Shown here in pieces: positions 458 to 54,394 of a DNA stretch of 64,000 nt. The position numbers and the translations under genes were made by a program. Each line of letters opens with the position of its first letter. Positions within the stretch are counted from its first letter, which is position 1. The notes below the pieces were generated by a model, which made no database searches, was not told the origin of the DNA, and saw only the letters and a program-made list of their open reading frames with translations. Location: positions 1 through 64,000 of the forward strand of contig JADFDO010000003.1 in assembly GCA_018262855.1 (NCBI GenBank), written 5' to 3'. Origin of the DNA: Methanolinea sp. (GTDB taxonomy: Archaea > Halobacteriota > Methanomicrobia > Methanomicrobiales > Methanospirillaceae).

Positions 458-1228
458 TCAGGAGACCGCGGGAGTCCCCTTTTCCTTCACACGGCGGAGG
501 ATCTCCTGCGCAAGTCGCCGCACTGCCTCTCTTGCAGGAGAGCCCGGCGGGATGGACCCGACCGGGGACCCGGCAAGGTCTGCGGCCTCGACTGCAGGAT
601 CCTCGGGAATGACGATTCCGATATCCGGTGCTCCCGGGACCACGTCTGAACTCTGTCCCTTCCACCGGTTCACGACGAGCACCTGGGGAACCGAAGAGAG
701 GCCGAGCGACTTCGCAAGGTCCCTGATCCTCGCAGCCGTCCGGATGCCCCTCGCCCCCGGGTCGCTCACGATGACGAGCAGGTCGGGAATCCCGATCGTT
801 CCCCTGCTGATATGCTCCATCCCGGCCTCGTTGTCGATCACGATGAACCGGTACTCCTTCCGGAGCATCGCGATACTGCGCTGTAACACGTCGTTGGCAA
901 AGCAGTAACAGCCGGTGCCCTCCGGCAGCCCCATTGCGACGAGATCGAACCCGCGCTCCTCCACAATCGCCTGCCTGAACCGGAGCTCCATGAACTCGGT
1001 CCTCGTCATCCCCGGAGGGATGCTCTCCTTGAACGATTCCTCCCTCATAGACCCGAGCGTCTTGGTGACTTCCACGCCGAGGGCCTCGTGGAGGTTGGCG
1101 TTCGGGTCCGCGTCAACCGCGAGCACGGGGGACTCGCCCGCCTCGATAAGTGCCCGAACCAGCAGGGCGGCAAGCGTGGTCTTCCCGGTCCCCCCCTTCC
1201 CGGTGACCGCAACCGAGAAGGGACTCAT
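458..1228 (-). CDS. cooC: CooC/AcsF-type nickel-insertion ATPase
   Basis: A P-loop ATPase of the MinD/CooC family, 256 residues. A deviant Walker A (G-K-G-G-T-G-K-T-T) sits near residues 10-18 and D-A-D-P-N-A-N-L near residues 40-47. The second half holds V-I-D-N-E-A-G-M-E-H, the usual CooC signature around switch II. CooC and AcsF use ATP to help load nickel into CO dehydrogenase or acetyl-CoA synthase. The ATG overlaps the stop of the methionine synthase gene (ATGA), so it is the last gene of the acsB operon. Because no CODH gene is seen here, its likely client is the A-cluster of AcsB; that is inference. Confidence 0.88.
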   Translation of the reverse strand: MSPFSVAVTGKGGTGKTTLAALLVRALIEAGESPVLAVDADPNANLHEALGVEVTKTLGSMREESFKESIPPGMTRTEFMELRFRQAIVEERGFDLVAMGLPEGTGCYCFANDVLQRSIAMLRKEYRFIVIDNEAGMEHISRGTIGIPDLLVIVSDPGARGIRTAARIRDLAKSLGLSSVPQVLVVNRWKGQSSDVVPGAPDIGIVIPEDPAVEAADLAGSPVGSIPPGSPAREAVRRLAQEILRRVKEKGTPAVS

Positions 1229-2262
1229 TTGGGCCGCCCGGCCCGTGCACGGTCCGAGAGTGCCGCCGCGGCACCCATGATCTCCCGTGCCTGAGACGGG
1301 TCTCCGGTCTGGATTCCGCAGGTTGGAGTGACCACGGACTGTTTCATGAAGAGGTCGTCAGAGCATGAATCCGCAACCTGCTGCCGGATCGCGGAGAACT
1401 GCTGGAAGAGGCTGTCGGGCGTCACCTTTGAGAAATCCTCGGGCCTTGCAGGAACCAGCCCCCAGGCAACGACCCCGCCCCTCTCCATGAAGGCCACGAG
1501 GTCGTCCATATAGAGGAGGAGTTCGCGGGAGCAGGTGAAAGCATCGAACGAGAGGAACGAGGGGTTGAGGCCCATTAAATAACTCCAGTCGGTGTTGGCG
1601 CAGCAGTGTATCCCGATCCCCCCTTCCACCATCCCGGCAATATCCTCCCACCCTGCCGTGACGTTCTCCTGCCGGATGGGAACCACCGATGAGCCGAGCG
1701 ATGCAAGGTAGGGCTCATTCAGCACTACCAGGGTCTCTTTCACCCCGGAAAACTGCCGCATCGCCTCCTCACACCACCGGGCAATGAGTGCGATCATCTT
1801 TGAGATCACGTCGGCATACTGGTCGTCGTAATAGAGCGGCCTCCGGTCGGCATCCACCACCTGCATTCCGAAGGTCACCGGACCCGTCACCTGGCACTTG
1901 AGGATGGCTGCCGAAGAAAAATCCCTCTTCGCCATCTCGAAGAACGCCGAGGCATTCCGGTCCGTCCGGGCATAGGGTGCGACGTTCTTCTCCATGAAGT
2001 CGAGGTAGATCTTCTCCATCTCGCTCCCTATGTCCCGCGAGGGATCGATGCCAAGTCTTCCGTCATGGACAGATCCCCCTGGCAATGGTGCAGAATCGCA
2101 GAACACGATCGATTCCATGAGGCCCCGGTTGGGAAGGGTTGGCACGTAGGGAAACTTGGGAAAGGCTTCGAGGACATCGTCACATGCCTGCCGGGGATCG
2201 GTATGGGGAAGACCGCCGATGCCGGTCGCCCCGCATTCCGGGGGAGTGATCCAGGAGCTCAT
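1225..2262 (-). CDS. Core-MetE methionine synthase (cobalamin/corrinoid-protein dependent type)
   Basis: A 345-residue protein matching only the C-terminal, zinc-binding barrel of MetE; the N-terminal folate-binding half of MetE (about 750 residues in bacteria) is absent. Zinc-ligand candidates are His219 and Cys221 (H-C-C-A-N) and Cys315 (T-P-T-C-G-I), with Asp240 where MetE has Glu. L-N-E-P lies near residue 183. The start at 2262 overlaps the RACo stop (ATGA) and has a G-G-A-G-A-G-G-G ribosome site. Short MetE proteins of this kind are known to take methyl groups from corrinoid proteins and pass them to homocysteine. Lying inside a CFeSP operon, its donor is probably methyl-CFeSP. A different thiol acceptor cannot be excluded. 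Confidence 0.8.
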   Translation of the reverse strand: MSSWITPPECGATGIGGLPHTDPRQACDDVLEAFPKFPYVPTLPNRGLMESIVFCDSAPLPGGSVHDGRLGIDPSRDIGSEMEKIYLDFMEKNVAPYARTDRNASAFFEMAKRDFSSAAILKCQVTGPVTFGMQVVDADRRPLYYDDQYADVISKMIALIARWCEEAMRQFSGVKETLVVLNEPYLASLGSSVVPIRQENVTAGWEDIAGMVEGGIGIHCCANTDWSYLMGLNPSFLSFDAFTCSRELLLYMDDLVAFMERGGVVAWGLVPARPEDFSKVTPDSLFQQFSAIRQQVADSCSDDLFMKQSVVTPTCGIQTGDPSQAREIMGAAAALSDRARAGRPK

Positions 2263-4169
2263 GTACTCCCTCTCCTGATCCTGCACTGCCCGAGTTTCGT
2301 CTCCACGTCCGGGAAGAGGGAGAGATCGGTGTGGGGCAGGAAGCAGCTTCTGGTATACTCATCCATGAACGCGGGTTCAGCGTTCAGCTCGACGTAGGCG
2401 ATCTTTTCCGCGATCTCGTCAAGCACCTTCTTCTTCCTCCGGTTCAGGAGCGCGATGTTTGCCCCTGCAATCGCACCGTTCCCGATTCCGGTCACCCTGC
2501 CGACCGGGACTTCCGGTATAAGCCCGATGGTGATCGCATGATTCTTGTCGAGGTAATTGCCAAACGCACCCGCGAAGAAGATCCGTGAGATCTCTCCCCT
2601 CGCGATCCCTGCCTTGTTCATGAGGGTCTGGCAGGCCGCAAGGACCGATGCCTTGCTCATGATGAGCGCCTTGATATCGTTCTCGGTGACCACGATGTCC
2701 CGTCCGATCGCGGTCTCGTCCTTCCAGGCGACCACGAACTCGGGGACATGGCGTCCCATCCTGATCCGTTCGTGTGCGATAGTCATGTTGATCCTGCCGG
2801 TCCTGTCGATGACACAGGCCTCGAGGAGCTGGGCGAGGAGATCGATCAGCCCCGACCCGCAGATCCCTTTCGGTTTCTGGTTATGGATGGTCGAGAATGA
2901 CGGGACAAGCGTGACCGGATCGATGGTGATCCGCTCGATTGCCCCCGGGTTCGCCCGCATGCCAAAGAGGACCTCCCCGCCTTCAAGGGCTGGGCCTGCC
3001 GCACCTGCACAGGTAAACATCCAGTCCCGGTTCCCCAGGACCACCTCGAAGTTGGTCCCGATATCGATCAGGAGTGAGATCTCCTCGCTCTCCGCCATGC
3101 CTGATGCAAGGATATCGGCAATGATATCACCCCCTATGAAGTCGCTGACCGCCGGGAAGATGAAGAGGCCTGAATTCTCGCCCACCGCAAGGCCGATCCT
3201 CTGTGCAGCGGTAGTAAGATACCGCCTGACGACAGGGACATAAGGCTCCTCGATCATGTAGGCCGGATCGATTCCCATCAGGATATGGGTCATGATGGTG
3301 TTCCCGGCCACTACCACCTCGTAAATATCCTCCCTGTCGATCCCCGCGGAATTCGATGCCTCGGTGAGGGCTACATTGATGCTGTCGACGGCAAGGGACT
3401 GTAGTTTTGTAAGCCCTCCTCCCGACTTGGCATAGGTGACCCGGGAGAGGATATCCTCGCCGCAGCTGATCTGGTGATTGTAGCTCGAGCCGATCCCCAT
3501 GATGTGCCCGTCAGCAAGGTTCCTGATGTAGACCACGATGGTGGTGGTCCCGAGGTCCACCGCAGCCCCGTAGATATGGCTGGCAGTATCCCCCTTCTCG
3601 ACGTGGATGAGGCGGTAGCCCCCCGGCACGAGCGCAACTGTTGCGGTGATCTTCCAGCCGCTGTCGCGGAGAACCCGGGGTATCCGGCGTATCACCTCGA
3701 GCGGGGCATAGATGGCCCTCTCCTTCGGCCCGCCGCTCTTCTCGATCTCCCAGAGGAGCCGGGTGAGATCGGGTGACTGGTCGTCGAGGGAGGGCGGAAC
3801 AAGGGTGAGGAAATACTTCCATACGGCCGGGTTCAGGGCGGTAGGGATCTCCCCGGAATCAACGAGGATCTGCTGTTCCTGGACGAGCGTGGCATCGGGG
3901 ATCACCACCCGGAGGTCGTCGATGACCTTCGCCTGGCAGGCAAGGCAGACGCCATCCTCTACTTCAGCTGCTGAAAGGATGCTTTCATACTGCTCATGGT
4001 CGAATTCTGTCCGTCCGCTTTTTACGATAACCTTGCACTTCCCGCACTTTCCCTGCCCGCCGCAGACCACGTTTATGTGAAAGCCTGCCTTCTGCGCAGC
4101 TTCGAGAATGGTGCTCCCCTTCACAATCTCGACTTTCCGGAAACTCGGGAGGAATGTGACCGTCGGCAT
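2259..4169 (-). CDS. acsV: RACo: ATP-dependent reductive activator of the corrinoid iron-sulfur protein
   Basis: A 636-residue protein. The N-terminal [2Fe-2S] ferredoxin domain has Cys36, Cys42, Cys45 and Cys78. A linker and middle domain follow, then a large ASKHA-type C-terminal domain beginning around A-V-D-L-G-T-T-T and including L-L-I-D-I-G-T-N and F-A-G-A-F-G-N. RACo uses ATP to re-reduce cob(II)alamin that forms by accidental oxidation of CFeSP. The ATG at 4169 lies two bases past the cdhE stop; a longer in-frame start at 4244 would run back into cdhE and is less likely. Its place directly behind the two CFeSP subunits supports the role. Confidence 0.9.
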   Translation of the reverse strand: MPTVTFLPSFRKVEIVKGSTILEAAQKAGFHINVVCGGQGKCGKCKVIVKSGRTEFDHEQYESILSAAEVEDGVCLACQAKVIDDLRVVIPDATLVQEQQILVDSGEIPTALNPAVWKYFLTLVPPSLDDQSPDLTRLLWEIEKSGGPKERAIYAPLEVIRRIPRVLRDSGWKITATVALVPGGYRLIHVEKGDTASHIYGAAVDLGTTTIVVYIRNLADGHIMGIGSSYNHQISCGEDILSRVTYAKSGGGLTKLQSLAVDSINVALTEASNSAGIDREDIYEVVVAGNTIMTHILMGIDPAYMIEEPYVPVVRRYLTTAAQRIGLAVGENSGLFIFPAVSDFIGGDIIADILASGMAESEEISLLIDIGTNFEVVLGNRDWMFTCAGAAGPALEGGEVLFGMRANPGAIERITIDPVTLVPSFSTIHNQKPKGICGSGLIDLLAQLLEACVIDRTGRINMTIAHERIRMGRHVPEFVVAWKDETAIGRDIVVTENDIKALIMSKASVLAACQTLMNKAGIARGEISRIFFAGAFGNYLDKNHAITIGLIPEVPVGRVTGIGNGAIAGANIALLNRRKKKVLDEIAEKIAYVELNAEPAFMDEYTRSCFLPHTDLSLFPDVETKLGQCRIRRGST

Positions 4170-4171
4170 GA

Positions 4172-5509
4172 TCAGGGCTTCCACTCCTGGAGCAGGAACT
4201 CGGCGATATCCGCAGCGTCTCGCGGGCCAACGAGGACCTTCCACCCGGTGGCATCTTCAATCCTCCCCGAGAGCGGGGCTGCATATCCCGGGATGATGAG
4301 TTTCCGGTGCGAGACCGCGTTCCCGAGATCGAACTTTGCGATTGCCTCCTTCACCATCGCTTCCTGGAGTTTTCCCGACGCGACCGCGGTCAGGACCGAG
4401 AGCCCCTCGGTATCCACCACCAGCATCAGCGACGGGACGCGGGATGCCTCGAGGTACCCCTGCAGGGTGAAGAACGTGAGCGAGAAGTTGACCGAGAGGA
4501 GAACAGGGGCGTCCTTCCCGGGGCTGCCGATCCTATAGAGACCCGGGGTGATCTGGATGGGCTTCTGCGGATCGGTGTAAATGTTCTGCCGGAGAACAAG
4601 AAGCGCCTTCCTCACCGGCTGTGACAGGGGATTGCAGACCAGCACCGAGCCGAACTTCGCAACCCCGGTGACGAGGAAGGCATCCTCAAGACCCGGCTGA
4701 GCACAGTCGAGGAACACGGGATACCCGAGTGCAGGGGTCTGGCGGGTCACCGCATGCTGCCGTACCGCAGTCGTCCTGTTCAGCACCTCGTGGAGGGAAG
4801 GAGAGGTCAGGTCCAGGAGGAGGTTGCTGACCCCCTCTGTCGCACACTTCGACGAGAGATCGGCCAGGGAATCGAGGGTGTCTGCCCGGATCGCCAGCGG
4901 ACAGGAGAATTTTTTCGCGAGTCTGCACATCTCCTGGTAGTTTTCATGCGTTGCGGCATGGATGAGCGGACGGTAGTTGCCGGAGACTCCAAGGCCTGCT
5001 TCCATGCAGACGGGATCAGTGCTCATCAGCACCTCGGGAAGGTCTGCGACCGACTCAACTGCTTCCACGGCACGGGAGAACTCCCCGGGACTCCCCGATT
5101 CGCACCGTATAGCGATACCATTCAGCCTGAGATCGGTCCCGATCCTGGTGAGGACGTAGTCCCGGACATCGGTGGTTATTTCCTTTATCCGGTCTCCGGG
5201 CATGGTGTCCGGAATGGCGGTCATGATGCCCGGCTCGTGGATGAATGTCTTCTCGTGGCGGTACTGGACCATCTCCTCGCCGAGCGTAAAGGAACGCTCG
5301 CCCACTCCTATCTTCACCTTCTGGATGGGCGGACGGGTGGAGGCGCCAAGGATTGCCTTTGCATTCTCGTCGAGGTACGGGCACTGGTCGGGCTGGGCCT
5401 TTCCTCCGGCAAGTTTCATTGCGAACGTGAGGCACGTGGGGTCCCCGCATTCCTTGCAGTTCTTCTTGGGGAGCAGCTTGTAGATGTCCAGGGGTTTGAG
5501 CGAGGCCAT
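4172..5509 (-). CDS. cdhE: Corrinoid iron-sulfur protein large subunit (ACDS gamma, AcsC/CdhE)
   Basis: A 445-residue protein, normal for the family. The N-terminal [4Fe-4S] domain has Cys18, Cys21, Cys26 and Cys43, the hallmark of CdhE/AcsC. A TIM-barrel region and a C-terminal cobalamin-binding domain follow (G-R-I-E-D-A-T-G-W-K-V-L-V-G-P-R-D-A-A near the end). The protein carries the corrinoid that shuttles a methyl group between the A-cluster of acetyl-CoA synthase and a methyltransferase. It follows cdhD with a six-base gap. Confidence 0.95.
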   Translation of the reverse strand: MASLKPLDIYKLLPKKNCKECGDPTCLTFAMKLAGGKAQPDQCPYLDENAKAILGASTRPPIQKVKIGVGERSFTLGEEMVQYRHEKTFIHEPGIMTAIPDTMPGDRIKEITTDVRDYVLTRIGTDLRLNGIAIRCESGSPGEFSRAVEAVESVADLPEVLMSTDPVCMEAGLGVSGNYRPLIHAATHENYQEMCRLAKKFSCPLAIRADTLDSLADLSSKCATEGVSNLLLDLTSPSLHEVLNRTTAVRQHAVTRQTPALGYPVFLDCAQPGLEDAFLVTGVAKFGSVLVCNPLSQPVRKALLVLRQNIYTDPQKPIQITPGLYRIGSPGKDAPVLLSVNFSLTFFTLQGYLEASRVPSLMLVVDTEGLSVLTAVASGKLQEAMVKEAIAKFDLGNAVSHRKLIIPGYAAPLSGRIEDATGWKVLVGPRDAADIAEFLLQEWKP

Positions 5510-5515
5510 GGGCGA

Positions 5516-6469
5516 TCACTCCCCTCCGCCAGGGTGTACTTGAAAGAGCGACGAACATGCATCCCTGATGAGCGGGACCGTCTCCGGGTGCCGAACAGAG
5601 ACGATCGCGGCTCCTGCAAGATATGCCGGGAGCATGGCATAGAGTTCCCATGCAACCGCGATCCGGTCAGCATCTTCACCTTCGGCCTCCCTGACTTCCT
5701 TGATGGTGAGCGAATCTACCGCTGAACTGATCATGGGCATGGCGAGATCCTCGTCACCCTTGAGTGCGGCGGTCCTGATACGCTCCATGACAGAGTAGGA
5801 ATATTCAAATCCATACCCGAGCGCTCCTGTATACGGGTCGATCGCGATTCTGTCTCGGGGTATCCCTATCTCGCGGAGGAGAATATTCAGCTGCTTGGCG
5901 AGGTTGATATCAATCGGGGACTGCGCAATGATGGAATGGCCATACGCCATCGCAGCCGCCGCAACGCTCCGGTACCGGCCCGCTTCTGCGGTCCCGAGGA
6001 GGATGCGCTCACCTGCAGCAGCCTCACCGATCTTCTGGTAGACCTCGCTGTCGATTGCGGGATCGTTGCTTCCCTCGATACTGATCGGGAGGCTTGTTGC
6101 CTGGAGTACCTCCTCGACGGTCTTCCTGATGGCAGCACAGTCTGAGAACCCGCGCCTCCGGGTACTCGTGCAGTACAGCCTGATCAGGTCGGGACGGATC
6201 TCTGCCTCCGCGAACCGTGCCCATGCCGCCGGATCGGATGAGGCGTCTCCCACCGCATGCCGGGCGACCGCGGGCCAGAGGTCCGGGTCATCGGCAATCT
6301 CGTAGGCAACAACCGCGGGATACCCCAGAGGCGCGTTGCCGATCCCGTTGAGGTCTTTCTCTCCTCCAACCTTCAGAGTGCGGCTCCTGGTCCCGCCCTC
6401 TGACCTGGTTGCACCGATCACAAGTTCCCCGATCTGCCCGGTCCAGTCCGATATGGTAGAGATTCCCAT
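5516..6469 (-). CDS. cdhD: Corrinoid iron-sulfur protein small subunit (ACDS delta, AcsD/CdhD)
   Basis: A 317-residue TIM-barrel protein of the CdhD/AcsD family. Typical features are G-G-x-K-D-L-N-G near residue 35, I-S-I-E-G-S-N-D-P near residue 135 and A-I-D-P-Y-T-G-A-L-G-Y-G-F-E-Y-S near residue 215. It pairs with CdhE to form CFeSP and helps hold the corrinoid. It starts 13 bases after acsB ends, so the two are surely co-transcribed. The next gene, cdhE, follows at six bases. Confidence 0.94.
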   Translation of the reverse strand: MGISTISDWTGQIGELVIGATRSEGGTRSRTLKVGGEKDLNGIGNAPLGYPAVVAYEIADDPDLWPAVARHAVGDASSDPAAWARFAEAEIRPDLIRLYCTSTRRRGFSDCAAIRKTVEEVLQATSLPISIEGSNDPAIDSEVYQKIGEAAAGERILLGTAEAGRYRSVAAAAMAYGHSIIAQSPIDINLAKQLNILLREIGIPRDRIAIDPYTGALGYGFEYSYSVMERIRTAALKGDEDLAMPMISSAVDSLTIKEVREAEGEDADRIAVAWELYAMLPAYLAGAAIVSVRHPETVPLIRDACSSLFQVHPGGGE

Positions 6470-6482
6470 GGCCAGGCCCTCC

Positions 6483-8513
6483 CTAGATCAGCGGCTTCAT
6501 GCCGAGCGCCGGGTGGTCCACCGAGGCCAGGAATTCTGTCAGTGCCTCGATGGTCACGGCAGTCTTCTCGTCTGCGATCTTCTCGTAGAGCGATTCGAGG
6601 TTCTTTGCCTTGAGGTGGTCACGGAGACGGGTGCCAATCTCCTCTTTCAGGATCGATGGGATCCAGACCAGGCGTTCGATTCCGCCCTCGGCCTGGAGGA
6701 AGCGGTCGGAGAGGATGAATCCCTTCGAAATTCCCGCAAATCCGGGCGTCTGGGCTCCTCCCCCGATCGTGCCTGCAAGGGTTGAGAAGGTCATTCCCGA
6801 AGGGGTTTCTCCCTTGAACTCCCTCGAGACCACCATGAAGCCGTTTACCTCCGGCAGCATGACGGCAATACACTCAAAACAGCCGCAGCATGTCATGGGG
6901 AACTCCATGATGCTGTAGAGGGAGCACCGGTCGACCTCCCCGTGGGACGCTTTTTTCACAAACCTGTTCACCCCCTCGAACTCTCCCCTCTCCAGGTCGA
7001 TGAGCTTTCCTTTCTCGACAGGCTGATTCGCTCCTGCCGGTGCGATCTCATAGGCGATCTTGCCGTCGAGCCACGTGATCGCCCCGCAGAGCGCCGGTCT
7101 TTCAGGCGTAATGATGCAGACGTGGTTGGGGGCAAAGGTCTGGCAGAGCGTGCAGGAGTAGAAGGTGTCAACATCGGTGTCCTTCATCCCCCTGATCCTC
7201 TCGTCGCGCTCCAGGTACACCGCCTCGGCTTTCTCCCGCGCCTCTAACACAGCCTTCTCATCGGTGATGAGGGTGACCTGGACCGCGTCAAGGAGGTCCG
7301 GGAAGTCCATCCTGAACTTCGCGGCGAGGAGGACGCCTATGTCGCGTATGTGCACACCCTTGGAGACCGCATCTTTTGAGAGCCGGACCCAGATGATATC
7401 CCGCTGTGCCACGTGCCAGGAGCCCTCGCCGTAGTTGACAAAGTTATGGATCCTCCGTTCAAGGACCGGCTCGTACTCCTTCTTCATCTGCGATCCTGCC
7501 ACTTCGACGAGGATGGCGAGCGGAACTGCAGATCCCTCCTTGATATCCTCGATCTCGGGACCAATGACTTGGACCTCCCCTTCCTTCACTTCCGTACCGG
7601 GTCTGACCCTCAAAATCTCGAACGCCGGGGAGCGCCCGCCGCCGAACTCCACGTACATCTCCTCCTTGCGGATGCTCTTCCCTTCGAATGCCGGCGAGCA
7701 GGCCATGGGGATGGGGATCGCGGTCACGTTTACCTTGATACCCCGGAGCTCCATTCCGGTACGGACCGCGTCGGCAATACGGACGGGGACCCACGAGCCT
7801 CCCTCGTAGCCTCCCGGGGTGATGACCGGGATGCCGAGCACACGGAACGTATCGATAATCGCGACTTCCTCTTCGTTCAGCCCCGGAAATACTATTGCGA
7901 TGGCCTTTGCCCGCTCCCGGGCGTAGGAGAGGAGCCTTGTGGCATCCCCCGGGGTCACTCCCCCGAACATCATTGCCACCCTTGCGAGGATATCGATGAA
8001 ATGGATGGCTGACGAGGGGCGTGATCCGAGCGGAACAAGCCTGTATTCTGTCCCGACCCTGACACCTGCTGACTGGAGGCTCCCGATGATCCCTCCGGAG
8101 AGGAACGTCAGCATATACTTCTCCTGCAGTTCCCTGCAGAGCCCGGCCGCTTCTATCGGGTCAGCGGGAGTCCCCGCGACCAGAGCAAGGCCGAGAATAC
8201 TTCCGTCCACGAGCGAGTATCCAAGCGTCCGCAGCACCGCGTCCGGGATGAACCCGGTATAGGGAGCTGGTTCCCGGCCGGATACAGCTGCCTCACCCGC
8301 AGCCAGGCACTCGGCGGCAACCAGGGGATTTTCACCTGCAGCCGAAAACGCTGCCAGCGCTTCATTCCTGTCATGCACCGGGGATCCGGTCAGTGCAAAG
8401 GTGACAGGGAGGTGGTATGCCGTCTCCTCATAGGAAAAAGATCCTGTCATCCCCTCGAGCCGTCTCTTCAGGGCTGCTTTCCCGGCATCAACTGCCTTAT
8501 CCACGTCATTCAT
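6483..8513 (-). CDS. acsB: Acetyl-CoA synthase catalytic subunit, bacterial AcsB-like with N-terminal domain
   Basis: A 676-residue enzyme that makes or cleaves acetyl-CoA at a nickel-iron-sulfur A-cluster. All six ligands are present: Cys454, Cys457, Cys466, Cys476, Cys543 and Cys545 (C-G-C-F-E-C). Their spacing (3, 9, 10, 67, 2) equals that of Moorella AcsB Cys506 to Cys597. Ordinary archaeal CdhC is about 470 residues and lacks the N-terminal domain; here about 260 N-terminal residues precede the common core, as in bacteria, though the N-terminus is some 50 residues shorter than in Moorella. The start at 8513 has an A-A-A-G-G-G ribosome site; the upstream ATG at 8552 abuts the TATA box. 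First gene of the operon. Confidence 0.93.
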   Translation of the reverse strand: MNDVDKAVDAGKAALKRRLEGMTGSFSYEETAYHLPVTFALTGSPVHDRNEALAAFSAAGENPLVAAECLAAGEAAVSGREPAPYTGFIPDAVLRTLGYSLVDGSILGLALVAGTPADPIEAAGLCRELQEKYMLTFLSGGIIGSLQSAGVRVGTEYRLVPLGSRPSSAIHFIDILARVAMMFGGVTPGDATRLLSYARERAKAIAIVFPGLNEEEVAIIDTFRVLGIPVITPGGYEGGSWVPVRIADAVRTGMELRGIKVNVTAIPIPMACSPAFEGKSIRKEEMYVEFGGGRSPAFEILRVRPGTEVKEGEVQVIGPEIEDIKEGSAVPLAILVEVAGSQMKKEYEPVLERRIHNFVNYGEGSWHVAQRDIIWVRLSKDAVSKGVHIRDIGVLLAAKFRMDFPDLLDAVQVTLITDEKAVLEAREKAEAVYLERDERIRGMKDTDVDTFYSCTLCQTFAPNHVCIITPERPALCGAITWLDGKIAYEIAPAGANQPVEKGKLIDLERGEFEGVNRFVKKASHGEVDRCSLYSIMEFPMTCCGCFECIAVMLPEVNGFMVVSREFKGETPSGMTFSTLAGTIGGGAQTPGFAGISKGFILSDRFLQAEGGIERLVWIPSILKEEIGTRLRDHLKAKNLESLYEKIADEKTAVTIEALTEFLASVDHPALGMKPLI

Positions 8514-16353: not shown

Positions 16354-19300
16354 TCAGACCATGGTGAACAGGATGTACAGGTCATCAAAGTCAATCCGGC
16401 CATTGTTGTTGTAATCGAACAGGCTCACCGGTTCGTTCGCCTGGATCCATTCGAGATACAGGAAGTAGAGGATCACGTCATCGAAATCGATCCGTCCGTT
16501 CCCGTTGATGTCCCAATACACTCCGTCATGGTATGGATCGGTGGGCGGGGTGCTGTATCCCGGGAATGGGAGCAGAGCAACGATGGTGACAGGTGCCGGG
16601 TTGACATGAGTGTGCACCGGGTCTCCTGTATCGGTATCGATCTGGGATACCGTCACATTCATCGTTGTTGACATGGGCACCTTCCCCGTGCTATTGAAGA
16701 GCGCCAGATCGATGTTGGTTGCTCCCGGATGGATCACATCGTCGATATCAGAGACCTTCATCCATATCGATGATGAAGGGACAGTCCCGTTGATGACATA
16801 CACCGGGTTGACCCATGAAGGCGGATGGAATGTGACCATGTCCGCGGCAGATGGATCGGTGAAGTAGATGGTGATGTTATAACCCGAGAGCCCACGGTCC
16901 GCCTCTTCAAGGATCAGCTTCATCGCGGTCGTCGAATTGGTGGGAATGATCGCAGTCGATGGGACGAAGGTAAGGTTTGCGACGGCTGCATTACCCCAGA
17001 CACTGATATAGCGGTCCCTCGTCATGCTGCTCGTCCCAAACTCGTTTCCTACTGTGAGCTTAATCGTGAAGTTCCCTGCGTTGAGATACGTGTGGTTGAA
17101 TGTCAGGTTGCTGGTCTTGTTGTCGATGTAGCCATCCCCGAGGTCCCACAGCCACCAGTTCGGATACCCGGTTGAATGATCGGTAAAGTTGACAATGTGG
17201 CTCTCCACGAGGTTTCTTGGATCAGCAGTGAAGTTCGCGACAGGAACCTCACCTACCCTTATGTATTCAGTCTTTGATTCTGTATCCGTCCCCCAGAAGT
17301 TAGTGACCGTAAGGTTGACCGTGTAGTTCCCTCTCGCATTGAAGATGTGTAGCGGATTCTTGGTCGTTCCATTCGCTGATCCATCTCCGAAACTCCAGTT
17401 CCAGGTGTTCACCGACGGAACTGCAAACGAGGTGTCGGTAAACCCGACGTGAAGGGGTGCGATCCCATACGTTACATTTGCCGTGAAGTTCGCATCAGGA
17501 ACGCACCCGGCCTCCACCATGTAATACTTGGTAGTGCTATTGGAGCCGTACCAATTCGTCGCATTCAGGCTCACGTTATAGAGCCCCGGGATGTTGTAGG
17601 TGAAGTTGAATGGATGCTGCACAATGCTGTGGTTTCCATCTCCGAAACTCCAATTCCAGGCAACCGGTGTGTCGTCCGTCAGGTCGGTGAAGCTCACGTT
17701 CAGAGGTGCAAGGCCCTGGCAGAAGGTGCAGGGTACATCTGTCATGTTTGCAGAGAAGTTCACAATCAGGGGAGGTCCTACCTGGACATACCAGTATTTC
17801 CCTGTCGAGTTGCTCCCCTCTGCATTGCTGACTGTCAGGTTGACCGTCCAGTTACCGGTGGAGTACGTGTGGGATGGATGCTGCAGATTCGATGTCCCGC
17901 CATCTCCAAAGAGCCAGGACCACATAGTGGGGTTCCCAGTCGAGAGATCGGTGAAGTTCACGAGCAGCGGTGGGAGTCCCTTGATAAGCGTATAGTTGGT
18001 GACTCCGAGTGCTTCCCCGGTGAAGTTTGCGGTCGGCGGGATCGATACTATCCTTGCCACGAAAGCATCAAAGGCAAAGCGATAGGTCGGCTGAACTGGG
18101 TTCTTCAACGGGAAATCGCGTGAGTCGGTCCATCCGACCACCGAGACATTCGCACCCTGCCTTGCAATGCCCATAGCCCTATCGTCATATTCCCCGCCAA
18201 GGTACGTTGAGTACATGAGACCGGTCCCGTTGGGAAGGAAGCGGGTTACGAATGCATCGTACTTGAAACCGTCCATATTGGTATAGAGGGGACCTGCGGT
18301 CGGGAAGTTGGATGAATCAGTAAACCCTGTAATAAAGGCAGACCCTGTCTCATCAACTACAATTCCGGTACCTTCATCAACGAGGTTTCCGCCGATGAAG
18401 GTGGAGAAGTTAAGTGACAATCCATTGGGATTAAACTTTGTAACGAAGGCGTCCTGGATCCCTAACTTATTCGATTGGTAAGGATTCTTGAGGGGGAATC
18501 CGGAATACGGGTTGTTAGTCGCCTGGGTATACCCTGTCACATAAATATACCCATTGGCATCCACATCAATGCCGTATCCCGTTTCTTCACCTATCCCCCC
18601 AAGATATGTGGATGAATTCAACGCGCTCGCATCAGAATTGAGGTGGGTAACAAATGCATCCTGGTTCCATGAAATATTCTGCCTGAATGCCGGGAGGATC
18701 GTAGGGAAATTCCATGATCGCGTCAATCCCGTCACATAAATTTCCTGTGTGGTGGGATGGAGTGCGATCCCATAACCCTGGTCAGTGCCATCACCTCCCA
18801 GGAATGTGGAGAAGTCAAGGCTCATTGCCCCTGGACCATATGAGATACCGGATATGAATACATCGAAGGTGCCATTCAGCTCATCATCCCATGCACCTGC
18901 GGTTGTGGGGAAGTTCCAGGACCCCGTATACCCGGTTATCACGACCGAATTTCCGGATCCGTTCATATCGATTGCTTGACCGACATCGGTCATGTTTCCG
19001 CCCAGGAACGAGGAACAGACAAGAGTCGTTCCAGTTGGGTCAAGAACCGAAACGAATACATCGGAATCTGGATAGGCAACATGCTTTGTTGGCTGGAATG
19101 CGCCGAGGACAGGATAATTGTCGGAGATGGTATACCCAGTGACAATAGCATTACCGGATGCATCAACCACGATTCCCTGTCCGGAATCGTCATTGTATCC
19201 TCCAATATACGTGGAATAGTTGAGCGCTGTTCCATCGGGTTCAAACTTGGTGACAAATACATCCAGCCCCCCAGCGTTCAGCATCTGGTATCTCGGATTT

Positions 19301-20145
19301 CCTTCAGGGAATGGGAAATCGGTCGACTGGGTTGCACCGGTCACATAGGTGCTCCCTGCGCTGTCAACTGCAACCGCATACCCGCGGTCCTGCTGGCTTC
19401 CACCAAGGTAGGTTGAGAAATCAAGGTACGGGTCGATGATTAGCGGATATCGGGCGTCATAGGTTCCCAGTGAAAAGCCCACAAGGGAATCTCCGAGGAT
19501 CAAATATTCACAGCCAATGGGAACCTGGATGCCGTCAATAGCCTGGTAGCAGAACGGTGCTGCTTCCACAAGGGTTCCTGTTGCGGTCCTGACAAGAAGC
19601 GCACCTCCTTCATCACGGGAGAGGCTCTCCTGTCCAGAGTAGCGGAATACAACCTTCGCAGGGTCAACACCGGGAGCGAGCCGGATATCCCTCTTGAGGG
19701 CTCCATGAGTACCGTAGTAGATGATATCCACACCCGGGAGTATGTCTCCATATTTCACACTCCCGTAGGTCGGCACAGAGGAGACCCATTTCCCAGGATC
19801 GCTTCCCAGGAAGAAGTTCGCAGTCCCCTGCAGGAGGTCTTCTCCAACAACGCGTGCTCCGCCATCCTGTCCAACAATAGTTATCTCTACCGCGGAACCA
19901 GGCTCATTCTCTATGCCGGCTGCCGCACAGACCACCCCCTCGCGGGTAAAATAGATGCTGTGGCCTGCAGCATCCGCATGGTAAAGAACCTCTGCACTCT
20001 TCTGTCCCTGGTTCTCGATAAAGACCAGGGGGAGCCTGGCCATATCCACCCCGACCGCCGTATCGGCGACTGTCGGGGCCATGGTGAGTGCCAGGAGCAC
20101 TGCTACCATGATAAGGATAAATGAAATTCCTGACATTGATCTCAT
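16354..20145 (-). CDS. Giant secreted protein: beta-propeller, four PKD domains, cohesin-like module, dockerin
   Basis: About 1263 residues. A signal peptide is followed by an N-terminal domain (L-P-L-V-F-I-E-N-Q-G-Q), then seven SBBP-type repeats (S-T-Y-L-G-G ... G-Y-A-V-A-V-D-x-x-G ... Y-V-T-G-x-T ... F-P), fitting a seven-bladed propeller. Four PKD domains follow (W-x-W-x-F-G-D-G). A cohesin-like module near residues 1045-1180 shares G-L-x-G-Y and F-T-D-P-S with the neighbouring PEGA protein. The C-terminus is a dockerin with two calcium loops, D-I-N-G-N-G-R-I-D-F-D-D and D-Y-N-N-N-G-R-I-D-F-D-D. The start at 20145 has a G-G-A-A-G-G-T-G site; 20166 is also possible. It is probably a surface adhesion or matrix protein. 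Confidence 0.88.
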   Translation of the reverse strand: MRSMSGISFILIMVAVLLALTMAPTVADTAVGVDMARLPLVFIENQGQKSAEVLYHADAAGHSIYFTREGVVCAAAGIENEPGSAVEITIVGQDGGARVVGEDLLQGTANFFLGSDPGKWVSSVPTYGSVKYGDILPGVDIIYYGTHGALKRDIRLAPGVDPAKVVFRYSGQESLSRDEGGALLVRTATGTLVEAAPFCYQAIDGIQVPIGCEYLILGDSLVGFSLGTYDARYPLIIDPYLDFSTYLGGSQQDRGYAVAVDSAGSTYVTGATQSTDFPFPEGNPRYQMLNAGGLDVFVTKFEPDGTALNYSTYIGGYNDDSGQGIVVDASGNAIVTGYTISDNYPVLGAFQPTKHVAYPDSDVFVSVLDPTGTTLVCSSFLGGNMTDVGQAIDMNGSGNSVVITGYTGSWNFPTTAGAWDDELNGTFDVFISGISYGPGAMSLDFSTFLGGDGTDQGYGIALHPTTQEIYVTGLTRSWNFPTILPAFRQNISWNQDAFVTHLNSDASALNSSTYLGGIGEETGYGIDVDANGYIYVTGYTQATNNPYSGFPLKNPYQSNKLGIQDAFVTKFNPNGLSLNFSTFIGGNLVDEGTGIVVDETGSAFITGFTDSSNFPTAGPLYTNMDGFKYDAFVTRFLPNGTGLMYSTYLGGEYDDRAMGIARQGANVSVVGWTDSRDFPLKNPVQPTYRFAFDAFVARIVSIPPTANFTGEALGVTNYTLIKGLPPLLVNFTDLSTGNPTMWSWLFGDGGTSNLQHPSHTYSTGNWTVNLTVSNAEGSNSTGKYWYVQVGPPLIVNFSANMTDVPCTFCQGLAPLNVSFTDLTDDTPVAWNWSFGDGNHSIVQHPFNFTYNIPGLYNVSLNATNWYGSNSTTKYYMVEAGCVPDANFTANVTYGIAPLHVGFTDTSFAVPSVNTWNWSFGDGSANGTTKNPLHIFNARGNYTVNLTVTNFWGTDTESKTEYIRVGEVPVANFTADPRNLVESHIVNFTDHSTGYPNWWLWDLGDGYIDNKTSNLTFNHTYLNAGNFTIKLTVGNEFGTSSMTRDRYISVWGNAAVANLTFVPSTAIIPTNSTTAMKLILEEADRGLSGYNITIYFTDPSAADMVTFHPPSWVNPVYVINGTVPSSSIWMKVSDIDDVIHPGATNIDLALFNSTGKVPMSTTMNVTVSQIDTDTGDPVHTHVNPAPVTIVALLPFPGYSTPPTDPYHDGVYWDINGNGRIDFDDVILYFLYLEWIQANEPVSLFDYNNNGRIDFDDLYILFTMV

Positions 20146-20408
20146 GAGTTGCACCTTCCACCTCATTCCCAGACGCTATAGCAATGGTGAGGAGTCAATA
20201 CCCTGCCCCTAGGATGCCACGCAGTATCCACTCACTCTGCCAAAGCCCACGATCTAGTATCTGGTATGAAACCTGGAGTTCTGATCAGATTGTGGTAAAA
20301 AAACCCTCTATTTGAATGATGATAAATCTTTCCCCCAAAAAACCCAATTTTTGCGTATTTCGGCTTGAAAGGGCAAAATATTCTGTACCCGTTCTGTGGC
20401 AACGGACC

Positions 20409-42564: not shown

Positions 42565-42625
42565 TTAGGCTCACGCTTTCCTTTGCTAGCTATTTATGTA
42601 CGTATATGACCCACCTTATAATAAG

Positions 42626-44251
42626 ATGCGGTCAGCTGAATTTCTCGATTGTCACGTGCTTGTGATAGGAAGCGGAGGAGCGGGGGTTCGTGCAGCAATA
42701 GAGGCCTCCTGCTACGGGGAAACCATCCTCCTCTCCAAGACGATTGCAGGGAAGGGCGGATGTACCACCATGGCTGAGGGGGGTTACAATGCTGTGCTGA
42801 GAGAGGAGGACTCATGCGAGGATCACTTCGAGGACACGATGAAAGGCGGGGCTTACCTGAACGATCCTGCCCTCGTGAGAATTCTCGTCGATGAATCACC
42901 GGAAAGGATCAGGGACCTCCTGAAATGGGGAGCGGTGTTTGACGTCACCGACCGTTGCGAAGTCGCCCAGAGGCCATTTGGGGGGCAGTGTTTTCCCCGC
43001 ACCTGCTATGCCGGCGACCGTACCGGCCACGAGATGATGGCAACCCTCATGGACAGGATGGCCTCTTCGGGTACAGAGGTCATCCAGGAGGTGAGCGTGA
43101 TCCACCTCTTCAAGGATGAAAATACCGTCACGGGAGCCCTTGGAATCGATCGCAACGGGGAGCTCCTCGCTATCCGTTCTGACAGCACCATCCTCGCAAC
43201 CGGAGGAGGAACAAGGATCTACGATATCTCCACCAACTCCTCGAGCGGAACAGGAGACGGGTACGCCCTTGGATTCCGGGCAGGCGCCGATCTGATCGAC
43301 ATGGAACAGGTGCAGTTCCACCCAACAGGTGCTGTATTTCCCTACGATGCCCGGGGTCGCCTGGTGACGGAGGCCGTGCGTGGTGAGGGAGGAATTCTCA
43401 AAAATTCGCTCAATGAACGGTTCATGTCGAGATATGATCCTGAACGGATGGAACTCTCGACGAGGGACGTGGTATCCCGCTCGATTGCGACCGAGATTCT
43501 CGAAGGACGGGGGACTGGACATGGCGGGGTATACCTGGACGTGACCCACCTGCCGCGGTCCCAGATCGAGAGCAGGCTGCCGGTCATGCTCGAGCAGTTC
43601 CTCAAGTTCGGCGTGGATATACGCGATGAACCCATGGAGGTCGCACCAACAGCCCACCACATCATGGGGGGACTAAGGATATCTACAGACGGGCAGACAA
43701 CAATCCCCTGTCTCTATGCCTGCGGTGAAGTGGCAGGCGGCGTTCACGGGGCGAACAGGCTTGGGGGGAACGCACTTGCTGATACCCAGGTATTCGGGAA
43801 GCGAGCAGGTGAAGCGGCAGGCAGGTCCAGGAAACGGGTCAAAAAAATTCACAGGAAGGAGATCGAAGCCCAGGAGAAGAGACTGGCAGGTTTCCATGAA
43901 GGTTCGGTCCTTCCGACGACGATTGCCCGTTCCCTCCAGACCGCCATGTGGGAAGGTGCCGGAATTTTCCGGACCGCAAGGGAGCTCGAAAAAACACTCG
44001 AAGTAATCAAACACCTCTCTTCGCTACCCCTTAAGGCAACAGGGAATTCCAACCTTGCAGAGTGCTGCACCGTCCAGAACATGCTCAGGACCGCATCGCT
44101 TGTGGTCAGGGGTGCACTGCTCCGGAAAGAGTCCCGGGGAGCTCACGTGAGAAAAGACGTAACCCAGACCTGGGATGCGAAGTCCTCACCCTATGGCCAC
44201 ACCTGGCAGAATCTCAAGGACTCCGGCGTGGAAACAGGGGTAAAAGCATGA
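42626..44251 (+). CDS. tfrA: Thiol:fumarate reductase subunit A (flavoprotein)
   Basis: A 541-residue flavoprotein of the succinate dehydrogenase/fumarate reductase family. G-S-G-G-A-G-V-R-A-A is the FAD Rossmann motif; Q-F-H-P-T-G near residue 230 and H-H-I-M-G-G and G-A-N-R-L-G-G-N-A-L-A-D motifs belong to the active site and FAD contacts. TfrA with TfrB reduces fumarate with coenzymes M and B as donors, giving succinate and the CoM-S-S-CoB heterodisulfide. ATG 42626 fits a leaderless transcript from TATA at 42590-42600; ATG 42596 is in frame but lies inside that element. tfrB overlaps the stop. Confidence 0.92.
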   Translation: MRSAEFLDCHVLVIGSGGAGVRAAIEASCYGETILLSKTIAGKGGCTTMAEGGYNAVLREEDSCEDHFEDTMKGGAYLNDPALVRILVDESPERIRDLLKWGAVFDVTDRCEVAQRPFGGQCFPRTCYAGDRTGHEMMATLMDRMASSGTEVIQEVSVIHLFKDENTVTGALGIDRNGELLAIRSDSTILATGGGTRIYDISTNSSSGTGDGYALGFRAGADLIDMEQVQFHPTGAVFPYDARGRLVTEAVRGEGGILKNSLNERFMSRYDPERMELSTRDVVSRSIATEILEGRGTGHGGVYLDVTHLPRSQIESRLPVMLEQFLKFGVDIRDEPMEVAPTAHHIMGGLRISTDGQTTIPCLYACGEVAGGVHGANRLGGNALADTQVFGKRAGEAAGRSRKRVKKIHRKEIEAQEKRLAGFHEGSVLPTTIARSLQTAMWEGAGIFRTARELEKTLEVIKHLSSLPLKATGNSNLAECCTVQNMLRTASLVVRGALLRKESRGAHVRKDVTQTWDAKSSPYGHTWQNLKDSGVETGVKA

Positions 44252-45711
44252 AGGAGATGAGCGTAAGGGTCTTCCGTTTTGACCCCAGCGAGGATAAGGC
44301 ACCTCACTACCAGACATACCATGTGCAGGTCAATGAGGGCGCACGGGTCCTCCATCTCCTGCACGCCATTCATGAAGAGCATGATCCTACTCTCTCCTAT
44401 CGTTATTGTTGCGGATCAGGACAGTGCGGGAGCTGTGCTGTCAGGGTGAACGGGGAACCCGTTCTTGCATGCATGGAGGAGGCAAGGGATGGTATCACCA
44501 TCGAGCCCCTGGAACTTCCTGTTCAGAAGGACCTGATGGTTGATCTCGAACCCTATCTCGCATCGATATCTTCCCTGGCACCCAGGGAAGAGTTCGTCAT
44601 GCCACCGCAAGATGTCGTGGACACCATCAAACCGCTCCGGAGCTGCATTGAATGCCTCGCATGTGTCTCGGCATGTCCTGCTCTCAAGGTCATTGCATTC
44701 GCCGGACCTACCGCAATGCGGGAAGATCTGAGGCTCGCCCTCGACCCGCGTGACACCGAGGACCGGGTCACGGAAGCGGTGAAGGCAGGTCTTTTTACCT
44801 GCACCTCCTGCCAGGCCTGCTGGAAGGTATGTCCGAAAGATATTCAGATCCCCGGAAAAGCGATCGAGAAACTTCGTGCTCTCGCGAATAAGAAAGGACT
44901 GACCCTCCCGCGCCACCAGGAAGTGGAGAAGCTGGTTAAGGAGACCGGGAGGAGTGTCGTCCGGACAGAAACCTCGTTCCTTGAACAGGTACCTGAAGTC
45001 ATCGAACCTGTCGGACCGGTCAAGGCTACAGTAGGATTCTTTGTCGGGTGCATGTACAACCTCCGGCTCCCGAAGACTGCACTTGACGCCATGGAGGTAC
45101 TCAAAAGGAACGGCATCCGTGTCATCATACCAAAGGAGCAGGTGTGCTGTGGTTCCCCGCTTATCCGGACAGGGCAGGTGGATTATCTTGATACGCTGAA
45201 GAGAAGGAATATCGACGCCTTTGTTTTCAGAAAAATCGACACTGTACTTACGATGTGCGCCGGATGCGGGTCAACACTGAAAAACGACTACACCACCCCC
45301 TTCCGTGTCATGGACATCAACGAGTTGCTGACAAAGTTCGGGATCGAACCCCCTGCAAGGCTTTCTCTGAAGGCAACATACCACGACCCCTGCCATCTCC
45401 TTCGTGGTCAGGGGATACGCGATCTTCCCAGGGAACTCATTACCCAGGTTGTTGACCTGGTTGAGATGCCATCAATCTGCTGCGGGTCAGGAGGGGGTGT
45501 AAGGTCAGGGATTCCCGAGGAGGCTGCCGCACTTGCAGAAAAGCGAAGGGATGAGATCGAGAAGACAGGAGCGGATATCGTGATCAGCTCATGCCCATTC
45601 TGCGAGTTCCATATCATGGAGCACACCGATCGACCGGTGAAGAACATCACAACACTCCTCCTTGAGGGTTACCGCGAAAAAGACCGGAAAAAAATGGAAA
45701 AGCCTGTGTGA
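44248..45711 (+). CDS. tfrB: Thiol:fumarate reductase subunit B (iron-sulfur, HdrB-like)
   Basis: A 487-residue protein. The N-terminal [2Fe-2S] domain has C-C-G-S-G-Q-C-G-S-C; the ferredoxin part has C-I-E-C-L-A-C-V-S-A-C-P and C-T-S-C-Q-A-C-W-K-V-C-P; two CCG domains (C-C-G-S-P-L ... C-A-G-C-G; C-C-G-S-G-G-G ... C-P-F-C) make the thiol-oxidising half. The latter resemble HdrB, where CoM-SH and CoB-SH are handled. ATG 44248 overlaps the tfrA stop (ATGA). The 194 bases after it hold only the next promoter. Confidence 0.93.
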   Translation: MKEMSVRVFRFDPSEDKAPHYQTYHVQVNEGARVLHLLHAIHEEHDPTLSYRYCCGSGQCGSCAVRVNGEPVLACMEEARDGITIEPLELPVQKDLMVDLEPYLASISSLAPREEFVMPPQDVVDTIKPLRSCIECLACVSACPALKVIAFAGPTAMREDLRLALDPRDTEDRVTEAVKAGLFTCTSCQACWKVCPKDIQIPGKAIEKLRALANKKGLTLPRHQEVEKLVKETGRSVVRTETSFLEQVPEVIEPVGPVKATVGFFVGCMYNLRLPKTALDAMEVLKRNGIRVIIPKEQVCCGSPLIRTGQVDYLDTLKRRNIDAFVFRKIDTVLTMCAGCGSTLKNDYTTPFRVMDINELLTKFGIEPPARLSLKATYHDPCHLLRGQGIRDLPRELITQVVDLVEMPSICCGSGGGVRSGIPEEAAALAEKRRDEIEKTGADIVISSCPFCEFHIMEHTDRPVKNITTLLLEGYREKDRKKMEKPV

Positions 45712-53245: not shown

Positions 53246-54394
53246 CTATTTTGTCAGGTAAGCGTACGCTTCCAATGCCGCCTTCGCTCCTTCTCCCGCG
53301 GCGGTGATAATCTGCTTGGTCCTGATATTCGTCACATCGCCAGCCGCGAAGACCCCTGGGAAGCTTGTGTTGCAATTGATATCGATCACGATCTCCTTCA
53401 TCTCGTTCAGCATCAGGAAGCCCTCAAGAAAGTCGGTATTCGGAATCCACCCCACCTCCGCAAACACCCCATCGAGAGCAATAACGGTCTCTTTCCCGGA
53501 ATCGCGGTCCTTTATCGTAATACCGTTCAACATTGCATTGCCCTGGAGCGAAGAGATCGTGTGGTTTTCGTATGTGATGATATTCTTCTGCTCGCGGTAC
53601 CTGGTAATGTACGCTTCGTCAGCCTTGATCGTGCTCCGAACAATCAGGTAGACGGTCTTTGCGATTTTGCTCATCTCGATGGCAGTCTGTAGCGCAGAGT
53701 TCCCGCCACCAACCACGGCAACCACCTTGTCCCGGAAGAGCGGGCCGTCGCAGGTCGAGCAGGTCGAAAGCCCCCGTCCAAGGTATCTCTCCTCTCCCTC
53801 GACCCCGAGTTTCCTGGGACGTTTTCCCTGGGTCAGGATGACGGTTTTCGCCGAGTATGTTGCCCCTGTGGCGGTCTCGGCGAGGAAGATCTCCCCCTCT
53901 TTCCTTATGGAGGCCACGCGGTCCAGTTCAAGGCTGATATGCTCCTCTCTGACCTGTTCCTCGAACCTGTGCATCAAATCTTCTCCCGAGACCATCCGGT
54001 ATCCCATGTAGTTCTCGATTGCCCAGCTCTCGAGTGCCTGCCCCCCGATGTTCTCGGAGATTATCACCGTTTTTAACATCTTTCTTGAGCAATATACCCC
54101 TGCGGTGAGCCCTCCCGGACCGGCCCCCACAATCAATACATCATAGATATCCCCTGGCTTCGCACTCCCGAAAAGTTCATTCAACCGCTGGGCATCAAAC
54201 CCCACAATAACCTCGTCATCAACGACAATCACGGGGACTCCGTACTGGCCTGAGATCTCCACCATCTTTTTGGCCTGTTCCCGGTCAGTTCCCACATCGA
54301 TGGCCATGTAGTCCACATCATATTTATCCAAAAAAGCCTTCACCATGCGACAGTAGGGGCAGTTCTGGGTAGAATACACAGTAACCCTGGGCAT
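53246..54394 (-). CDS. Glutaredoxin-thioredoxin reductase fusion
   Basis: A 382-residue fusion. Residues 1-78 form a glutaredoxin-like domain with C-P-Y-C (residues 13-16) and cis-proline V-P-V-I. Residues 83-382 are a TrxB-like reductase: FAD motif G-A-G-P-G-G-L-T-A-G, redox-active C-S-T-C-D-G and NAD(P) motif G-G-G-N-S-A-L-Q. The fused domain may be the direct electron acceptor of the reductase. NADPH-binding residues are not the classic H-R-R-x-x-x-R, so the donor may be NADH or reduced F420. Convergent with the methyltransferase gene. Confidence 0.92.
   Translation of the reverse strand: MPRVTVYSTQNCPYCRMVKAFLDKYDVDYMAIDVGTDREQAKKMVEISGQYGVPVIVVDDEVIVGFDAQRLNELFGSAKPGDIYDVLIVGAGPGGLTAGVYCSRKMLKTVIISENIGGQALESWAIENYMGYRMVSGEDLMHRFEEQVREEHISLELDRVASIRKEGEIFLAETATGATYSAKTVILTQGKRPRKLGVEGEERYLGRGLSTCSTCDGPLFRDKVVAVVGGGNSALQTAIEMSKIAKTVYLIVRSTIKADEAYITRYREQKNIITYENHTISSLQGNAMLNGITIKDRDSGKETVIALDGVFAEVGWIPNTDFLEGFLMLNEMKEIVIDINCNTSFPGVFAAGDVTNIRTKQIITAAGEGAKAALEAYAYLTK

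Follow-up and report, generated by a model that had tools for sequence, protein, structure and literature searches.

The window analysed here is a 64,000-nucleotide stretch of DNA from Methanolinea sp. (GenBank assembly GCA_018262855.1, contig JADFDO010000003.1, positions 1 to 64,000), and it contains an operon for acetyl-coenzyme A (acetyl-CoA) synthase (ACS) at positions 458–8513. The operon comprises six genes, all on the minus strand and arranged head to tail, which overlap or are separated by gaps of no more than about 15 bases. The gene order is acsB, acsD, acsC, RACo, core-MetE of the MesB type and an AcsF/CooC-type ATPase. The features are as follows:

6483–8513, minus strand: acsB, bacterial-type acetyl-CoA synthase (NF040764, 882 bits against a cut-off of 800)
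5516–6469, minus strand: acsD/cdhD, small subunit of the corrinoid iron-sulfur protein (CFeSP) (NF003376, 329 bits against a cut-off of 280)
4172–5509, minus strand: acsC/cdhE, large subunit of CFeSP with a 4Fe-4S motif (NF003195, 523 bits against a cut-off of 306; Pfam FeS domain)
2259–4169, minus strand: RACo, reductive activator of CFeSP (Fer2 and RACo linker, middle and C-terminal domains; PF14574, PF17651, PF17650, PF00111)
1225–2262, minus strand: core-MetE, MesB type (alignment of 61 homologues, AlphaFold model, Foldseek, profile alignment to MesA)
458–1228, minus strand: CooC/AcsF-type P-loop ATPase with a CxC motif (MinD/CooC superfamily; P-loop and CxC motif)

Family scans and alignments confirmed the six coupled genes and the intact A-cluster cysteines that an earlier note had read from the sequence. 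RACo scored 565 bits with the stricter NF040756 (AcsV) model, under its cut-off of 800, and matched all of the RACo Pfam domains. The genes for RACo, core-MetE and the ATPase overlap by ATGA (RACo/core-MetE at 2262/2259 and core-MetE/CooC at 1228/1225), so that a single transcript for the operon is likely. No gene for a subunit of carbon monoxide dehydrogenase (CODH), for CdhB or for AcsE is present in the operon (458–8513), as the note had stated. AcsE was searched for in the operon only, and its absence, which the note had used as an argument, says little, since archaeal CODH/ACS systems are not known to use AcsE.

The favoured start of acsB is the ATG at 8513, with the homologues aligning from residue 12–14 of the longer open reading frame (ORF). 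The closest named record is that of Methanolinea sp. UBA11423 (Methanomicrobiales), whose AcsB is 96% identical. AcsB of the window, like that of relatives, carries the A-cluster cysteines (C-x2-C-x8-C-x9-C and C-G-C); of 107 aligned loci, 106 have the whole motif and all 107 its four-cysteine part. AcsB aligns with the Carboxydothermus hydrogenoformans ACS over residues 72–689 and represents the bacterial long form. Its N-terminal domain is present and is about 30 residues shorter than in acetogens; in the form starting at 8513, the first 59–81 residues do not align with the ACS of C. hydrogenoformans or Moorella thermoacetica. In the Moorella ACS, the N-terminal domain contacts CODH, and a shortened N-terminus would fit an ACS that does not dock CODH, which is only a lead. 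The four-cysteine motif of AcsC was found in all 67 aligned loci, and the GKGGxGKTT P-loop together with the CxC motif of the ATPase in 78 of the 78 cassette matches tested. AcsF is a nickel-loading factor for ACS, and the CooC-type ATPase is probably AcsF judging by its sequence, which would explain the presence of a CooC homologue without CODH.

The distribution of this six-gene cassette was studied in 119 genomes of Methanomicrobiales, each at least 90% complete and many of them metagenome-assembled. Full-length AcsB was found in 50 genomes and MesB in the same 50, the other 69 having neither (Fisher p ~1e-34; the genome counts share ancestry, so this and the following p-values are descriptive). 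The exact match is striking, the cassette being patchy in the order. The gene order is the same in all 43 named Methanomicrobiales loci with all six genes, and divergence is correlated among the six proteins (r = 0.83–0.93). All eight other sampled genomes of the genus lack the cassette (G005, G028, G068, G076, G090, G104, G107 and G114; six of them carry CooS, a CODH catalytic subunit), which suggests that it was gained or lost as a block. A search for MesB in two Bipolaricaulota genomes and one Bathyarchaeota genome with ACS found nothing.

In some relatives (loci L025, L059, L065 and L066), inserts of 1–3 kb are located between acsC and RACo. The insert of L059 (14330–17383) contains a 680-residue ORF on the opposite strand, and those of L065 (7127–8476) and L025 (5558–7193) contain similar membrane-anchored ORFs of 337–338 residues. 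The inserts encode unrelated-looking proteins or none and were rejected as part of the cassette.

CooS is present in 74 of the 119 genomes and is not associated with AcsB across the order (30 of 50 genomes with AcsB versus 44 of 69 without it, p = 0.71). CdhA, the archaeal CODH subunit, accompanies the cassette in 22 of 50 genomes, and archaeal CdhC, to which AcsB is 43–48% identical, occurs in 29 of 119. Nine cassette genomes contain neither CooS nor CdhA (G004, G033, G062, G071, G083, G093, G106, G109 and G116). One of these, G004, is a single contig with 99% completeness, where a missing contig can hardly account for the absence. A prismane-family search in the nine genomes gave no match at E ≤ 1e-20 in six of them and, in G004, G071 and G106, only matches of hybrid-cluster-protein size. 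Another 37 genomes, including six of the eight from the same genus, carry CooS without AcsB and without CdhA; hence, CooS has a job of its own. The occurrence of AcsB and MesB in the same genomes, the lack of association with CooS and the nine genomes without CODH strongly indicate the CODH-independent ACS module proposed in the note, and the cassette can be regarded as CODH-independent with high confidence. The CODH/ACS of Methanospirillum hungatei (Mhun_0686–0690) was considered as a further instance of the cassette and rejected, because the likely JF-1 genome (G111) has CdhA and CdhC, without full-length AcsB or MesB.

The source genome itself (G000; 2.29 Mb, 31 contigs, 99.2% complete) is not free of CODH. 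A genome-wide search for cooS/cdhA, cdhB and other methionine synthases, suggested in the note, found one CODH catalytic gene, encoding an intact CooS of 629 residues with all active-site motifs on contig C26 (TIGR01702, 713 bits against a cut-off of 478), and a MesA-type methionine synthase (PF01717) at G000:C25:197972–198766. No CdhA (TIGR00314) and no CdhB (PF02552) were found in this genome, and its single CFeSP pair is AcsCD of the cassette. Two marks of acetyl-CoA cleavage of the Dehalococcoides mccartyi type, a genome free of CODH and a core-MetE that is the sole methionine synthase, do not apply to the source organism. CooS belongs to an operon of six genes (locus L081, 3894–10333, on G000:C26) encoding a CooF-like ferredoxin, CooS, NuoE-like, NuoF-like and NuoG/HoxU-like proteins and CooC. 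With an electron-transfer module and a maturation factor of its own, it looks like a self-sufficient redox CODH. The operon resembles an NAD(P)H-coupled CODH, here in a methanogen. Acetyl-CoA synthetase scored over its cut-off in the source genome and in all nine CODH-less cassette genomes (10 of 10 examined). In two loci that were inspected, the apparent internal stops of these synthetases proved to be the terminal stop codons of the genes themselves.

Core-MetE, alone or as a profile, had no match in Pfam, NCBIfam or PDB sequence searches. An AlphaFold model made with 27 homologues reached a predicted local distance difference test (pLDDT) score of 87.6. In Foldseek, MetE structures ranked first for this model and uroporphyrinogen decarboxylase next, and no MtaA-type coenzyme M methyltransferase was among the best 50. 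The zinc ligands are H227, C229, D248 and C323 (counting from the start of the ORF at 2286). This HCDC type is conserved in 61 of 61 homologues and is that of the characterised MesB (PMC7857596).

The operon is tentatively interpreted as a CODH-independent methyl-transfer cassette which would split acetyl-CoA and pass its methyl group on to a thiol, with homocysteine as the simplest candidate; the chances of this interpretation as a whole are placed a little below even. AcsF/CooC would load nickel into AcsB, and RACo would keep the AcsCD corrinoid active by repair. Acetate would be converted to acetyl-CoA by acetyl-CoA synthetase, and AcsB would then cleave acetyl-CoA to CoA, carbon monoxide (CO) and a methyl group, which would be transferred to AcsCD. 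The zinc enzyme MesB would pass the methyl group from AcsCD to the thiol, the conversion of homocysteine to methionine being the simplest case. CO would exit the cell or, in genomes like that of the source organism, be oxidised by the separate CooS.

We infer the direction of AcsB, the direct transfer from AcsCD to MesB and the nature of the acceptor. The cleaving direction is slightly favoured, because AcsB is linked to MesB without CODH. A cassette serving acetyl-CoA synthesis should be linked to CODH, and a MesB that needed no more than methyl-CFeSP derived from methyl-tetrahydromethanopterin should be able to do without AcsB; in the 22 cassette genomes with CdhA, acetyl-CoA synthesis would have its own enzyme. 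The case for homocysteine as the methyl acceptor of MesB is evenly balanced. The route from AcsB through CFeSP and core-MetE to homocysteine, as drawn in the note, is upheld in part: CODH independence, the co-occurrence of AcsB with MesB and the presence of acetyl-CoA synthetase in 10 of 10 genomes are in its favour, whereas the replaced homocysteine contacts and the presence of MesA are not.

Several observations weigh against this interpretation. In the MesB of this clade, the Ser433-equivalent, which contacts the carboxyl group of homocysteine, is Ala or Gly in 53 of 61 sequences (eight keep Ser), and 59 of 61 have Asn or Ser in place of the Asp599-equivalent, the contact of the amino group (two keep Asp); in the core-MetE of the window they are Gly25 and Asn190. 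Both residues are kept in the outgroup MesB of the same phylum (L197 and L198) and in MesA of the same order, and a profile alignment of MesB with MesA, of low confidence, places the zinc and Asp positions in register. According to Price et al. (2021, PMC7857596), most but not all MesB proteins conserve the two residues. To judge by these substitutions, the homocysteine-binding site is altered in the clade, and since the Ser and Asp contacts are mostly replaced, the acceptor may not be homocysteine. In addition, MesA is present in 117 of 119 genomes, including that of the source organism; it follows that MesB would be unnecessary merely for making methionine, and a second methionine synthase is without obvious need. 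Methyl-tetrahydromethanopterin is already at hand in methanogens, and spending acetyl-CoA looks wasteful. Finally, CooS of the source genome could supply CO for the opposite direction.

The opposite direction would make the cassette the ordinary acetyl-CoA-synthesising half of the Wood–Ljungdahl pathway, with CO coming from CooS encoded elsewhere, the methyl group from methyl-tetrahydromethanopterin and MesB merely tapping methyl-CFeSP. The source genome is compatible with this: its CooS is intact, retains every active-site motif and is encoded together with a CooC, and AcsB is the only ACS of the genome, CdhA, CdhB and a second CFeSP being absent. However, the distribution of CooS in the order is statistically unrelated to that of AcsB (p = 0.71), CODH is missing altogether from nine cassette genomes, CooS has its own job in the 37 genomes without AcsB and CdhA, and 22 genomes keep the cassette alongside CdhA. 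We consider this explanation unlikely.

Equally unlikely is the synthetic operation of AcsB on external CO, in which methyl groups from methyl-tetrahydromethanopterin would be delivered via CFeSP and joined with scavenged CO, sparing acetate, and MesB would be a side branch. Such a function would account for the persistence of the cassette without CODH; ACS is reversible, and methyl-pterins can pass their methyl groups to archaeal CFeSP subunits without the help of AcsE. Nevertheless, it leaves unexplained why AcsB and MesB never occur apart (50 of 50), the cassette contains no methyl-pterin methyltransferase gene, and acetate activation is encoded in all ten genomes examined.

A less probable explanation still is that MesB of this clade abandoned homocysteine and exchanges methyl groups between CFeSP and a different thiol such as coenzyme M, which would connect acetyl-CoA chemistry directly with methyl-coenzyme M. 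The zinc site is invariant (61 of 61) in the same proteins whose Ser and Asp for holding homocysteine are mostly replaced, and MesA in the same genomes keeps Ser and Asp and can make methionine. However, Asn could still bind the amino acid, Ser is retained in eight sequences and Asp in two, and MetE heads the Foldseek ranking, followed by uroporphyrinogen decarboxylase, with none of the best 50 being an MtaA-type enzyme. The least probable version makes MesB a methyl-CFeSP:thiol methyltransferase acting on a methanogen-specific thiol such as coenzyme M, as a CODH-free shortcut between acetyl-CoA and methyl-coenzyme M beside the MesA methionine route.

Other genes of the window include those for TfrA and TfrB, the coenzyme M/coenzyme B-dependent fumarate reductase (42596–45711), both above the NCBIfam cut-offs and expected for a methanogen host. 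The gene at 53246–54394 encodes a glutaredoxin-like N-terminal domain fused to a thioredoxin-reductase domain, of which TIGR01292 matches residues 84–380 only. A secreted protein of 1270 residues with PKD-like repeats and two terminal EF-hand repeats (DINGNGRIDFDDV, DYNNNGRIDFDDL), dockerin-like in appearance, is encoded at 16354–20166.

ACS and CODH are generally regarded as inseparable. In this cassette, ACS is tied to a zinc methyltransferase instead, is patchily distributed in an archaeal order and often stands beside the archaeal CODH. If the cleavage of acetyl-CoA is true, hydrogenotrophic methanogens would be a source of CO, taking methyl groups from acetate, contrary to the view of methyl-tetrahydromethanopterin as the source of methyl groups for methanogen methionine. 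Dehalococcoides is known to combine a CODH-less ACS with a core-MetE (PMC7005905), and operons of mesB with acsCD in methanogens were reported in 2021 (PMC7857596, Figure 3B legend and text). In the part of PMC7857596 that was read, neither the strict association with acsB nor the missing association with CODH is described. For Methanospirillum, which requires acetate, the role of CODH/ACS has been described as undefined or unclear (PMC4704411, PMC11346949). A literature search, which reached few subscription papers, turned up no account of CODH independence for this cassette in Methanomicrobiales. The fixed set of six genes that includes acsB, the exact co-occurrence of AcsB with MesB, the CODH independence including coexistence with CdhA, and the altered homocysteine contacts appear to be new.

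Among the closest known systems is the incomplete Wood–Ljungdahl pathway of Dehalococcoides mccartyi, in which the methyl group of methionine is derived from acetate, and CO leaves the cell (PMC7005905; PMC7857596). Both systems have ACS and CFeSP without CODH or AcsE (here, in the operon) and a core-MetE of the MesB type, and the proposed flow from acetate through acetyl-CoA and methyl-CFeSP to methionine with the release of CO is the same. Unlike in D. mccartyi, where mesB is adjacent to the genes for S-adenosylmethionine synthetase and S-adenosylhomocysteine hydrolase, all genes are in one operon here, the source genome also has CooS and MesA, and the homocysteine contacts diverge. A genome with no CODH, as in D. 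mccartyi, is found in nine cassette relatives, but not in the source organism. The MesB family, as described by Price et al. (2021, PMC7857596), shares the HCDC zinc ligands, the MetE fold and the linkage to acsC/acsD, whereas the Ser433 and Asp599 equivalents are mostly replaced in this clade. With the acetogen CODH/ACS (Moorella, Carboxydothermus, Clostridium autoethanogenum), the cassette shares a full-length AcsB with the N-terminal domain, AcsCD, RACo and AcsF/CooC; it differs in the absence of acsA/cooS and acsE from the operon, the shortened AcsB N-terminus and the addition of MesB. The archaeal acetyl-CoA decarbonylase/synthase (CdhABCDE) has a homologous ACS core and CFeSP subunits; in contrast, AcsB is the longer bacterial form, the source genome has neither CdhA nor CdhB, and both systems occur together in 22 genomes. 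Overall, the cassette is a real CODH-independent variant of a known pathway.

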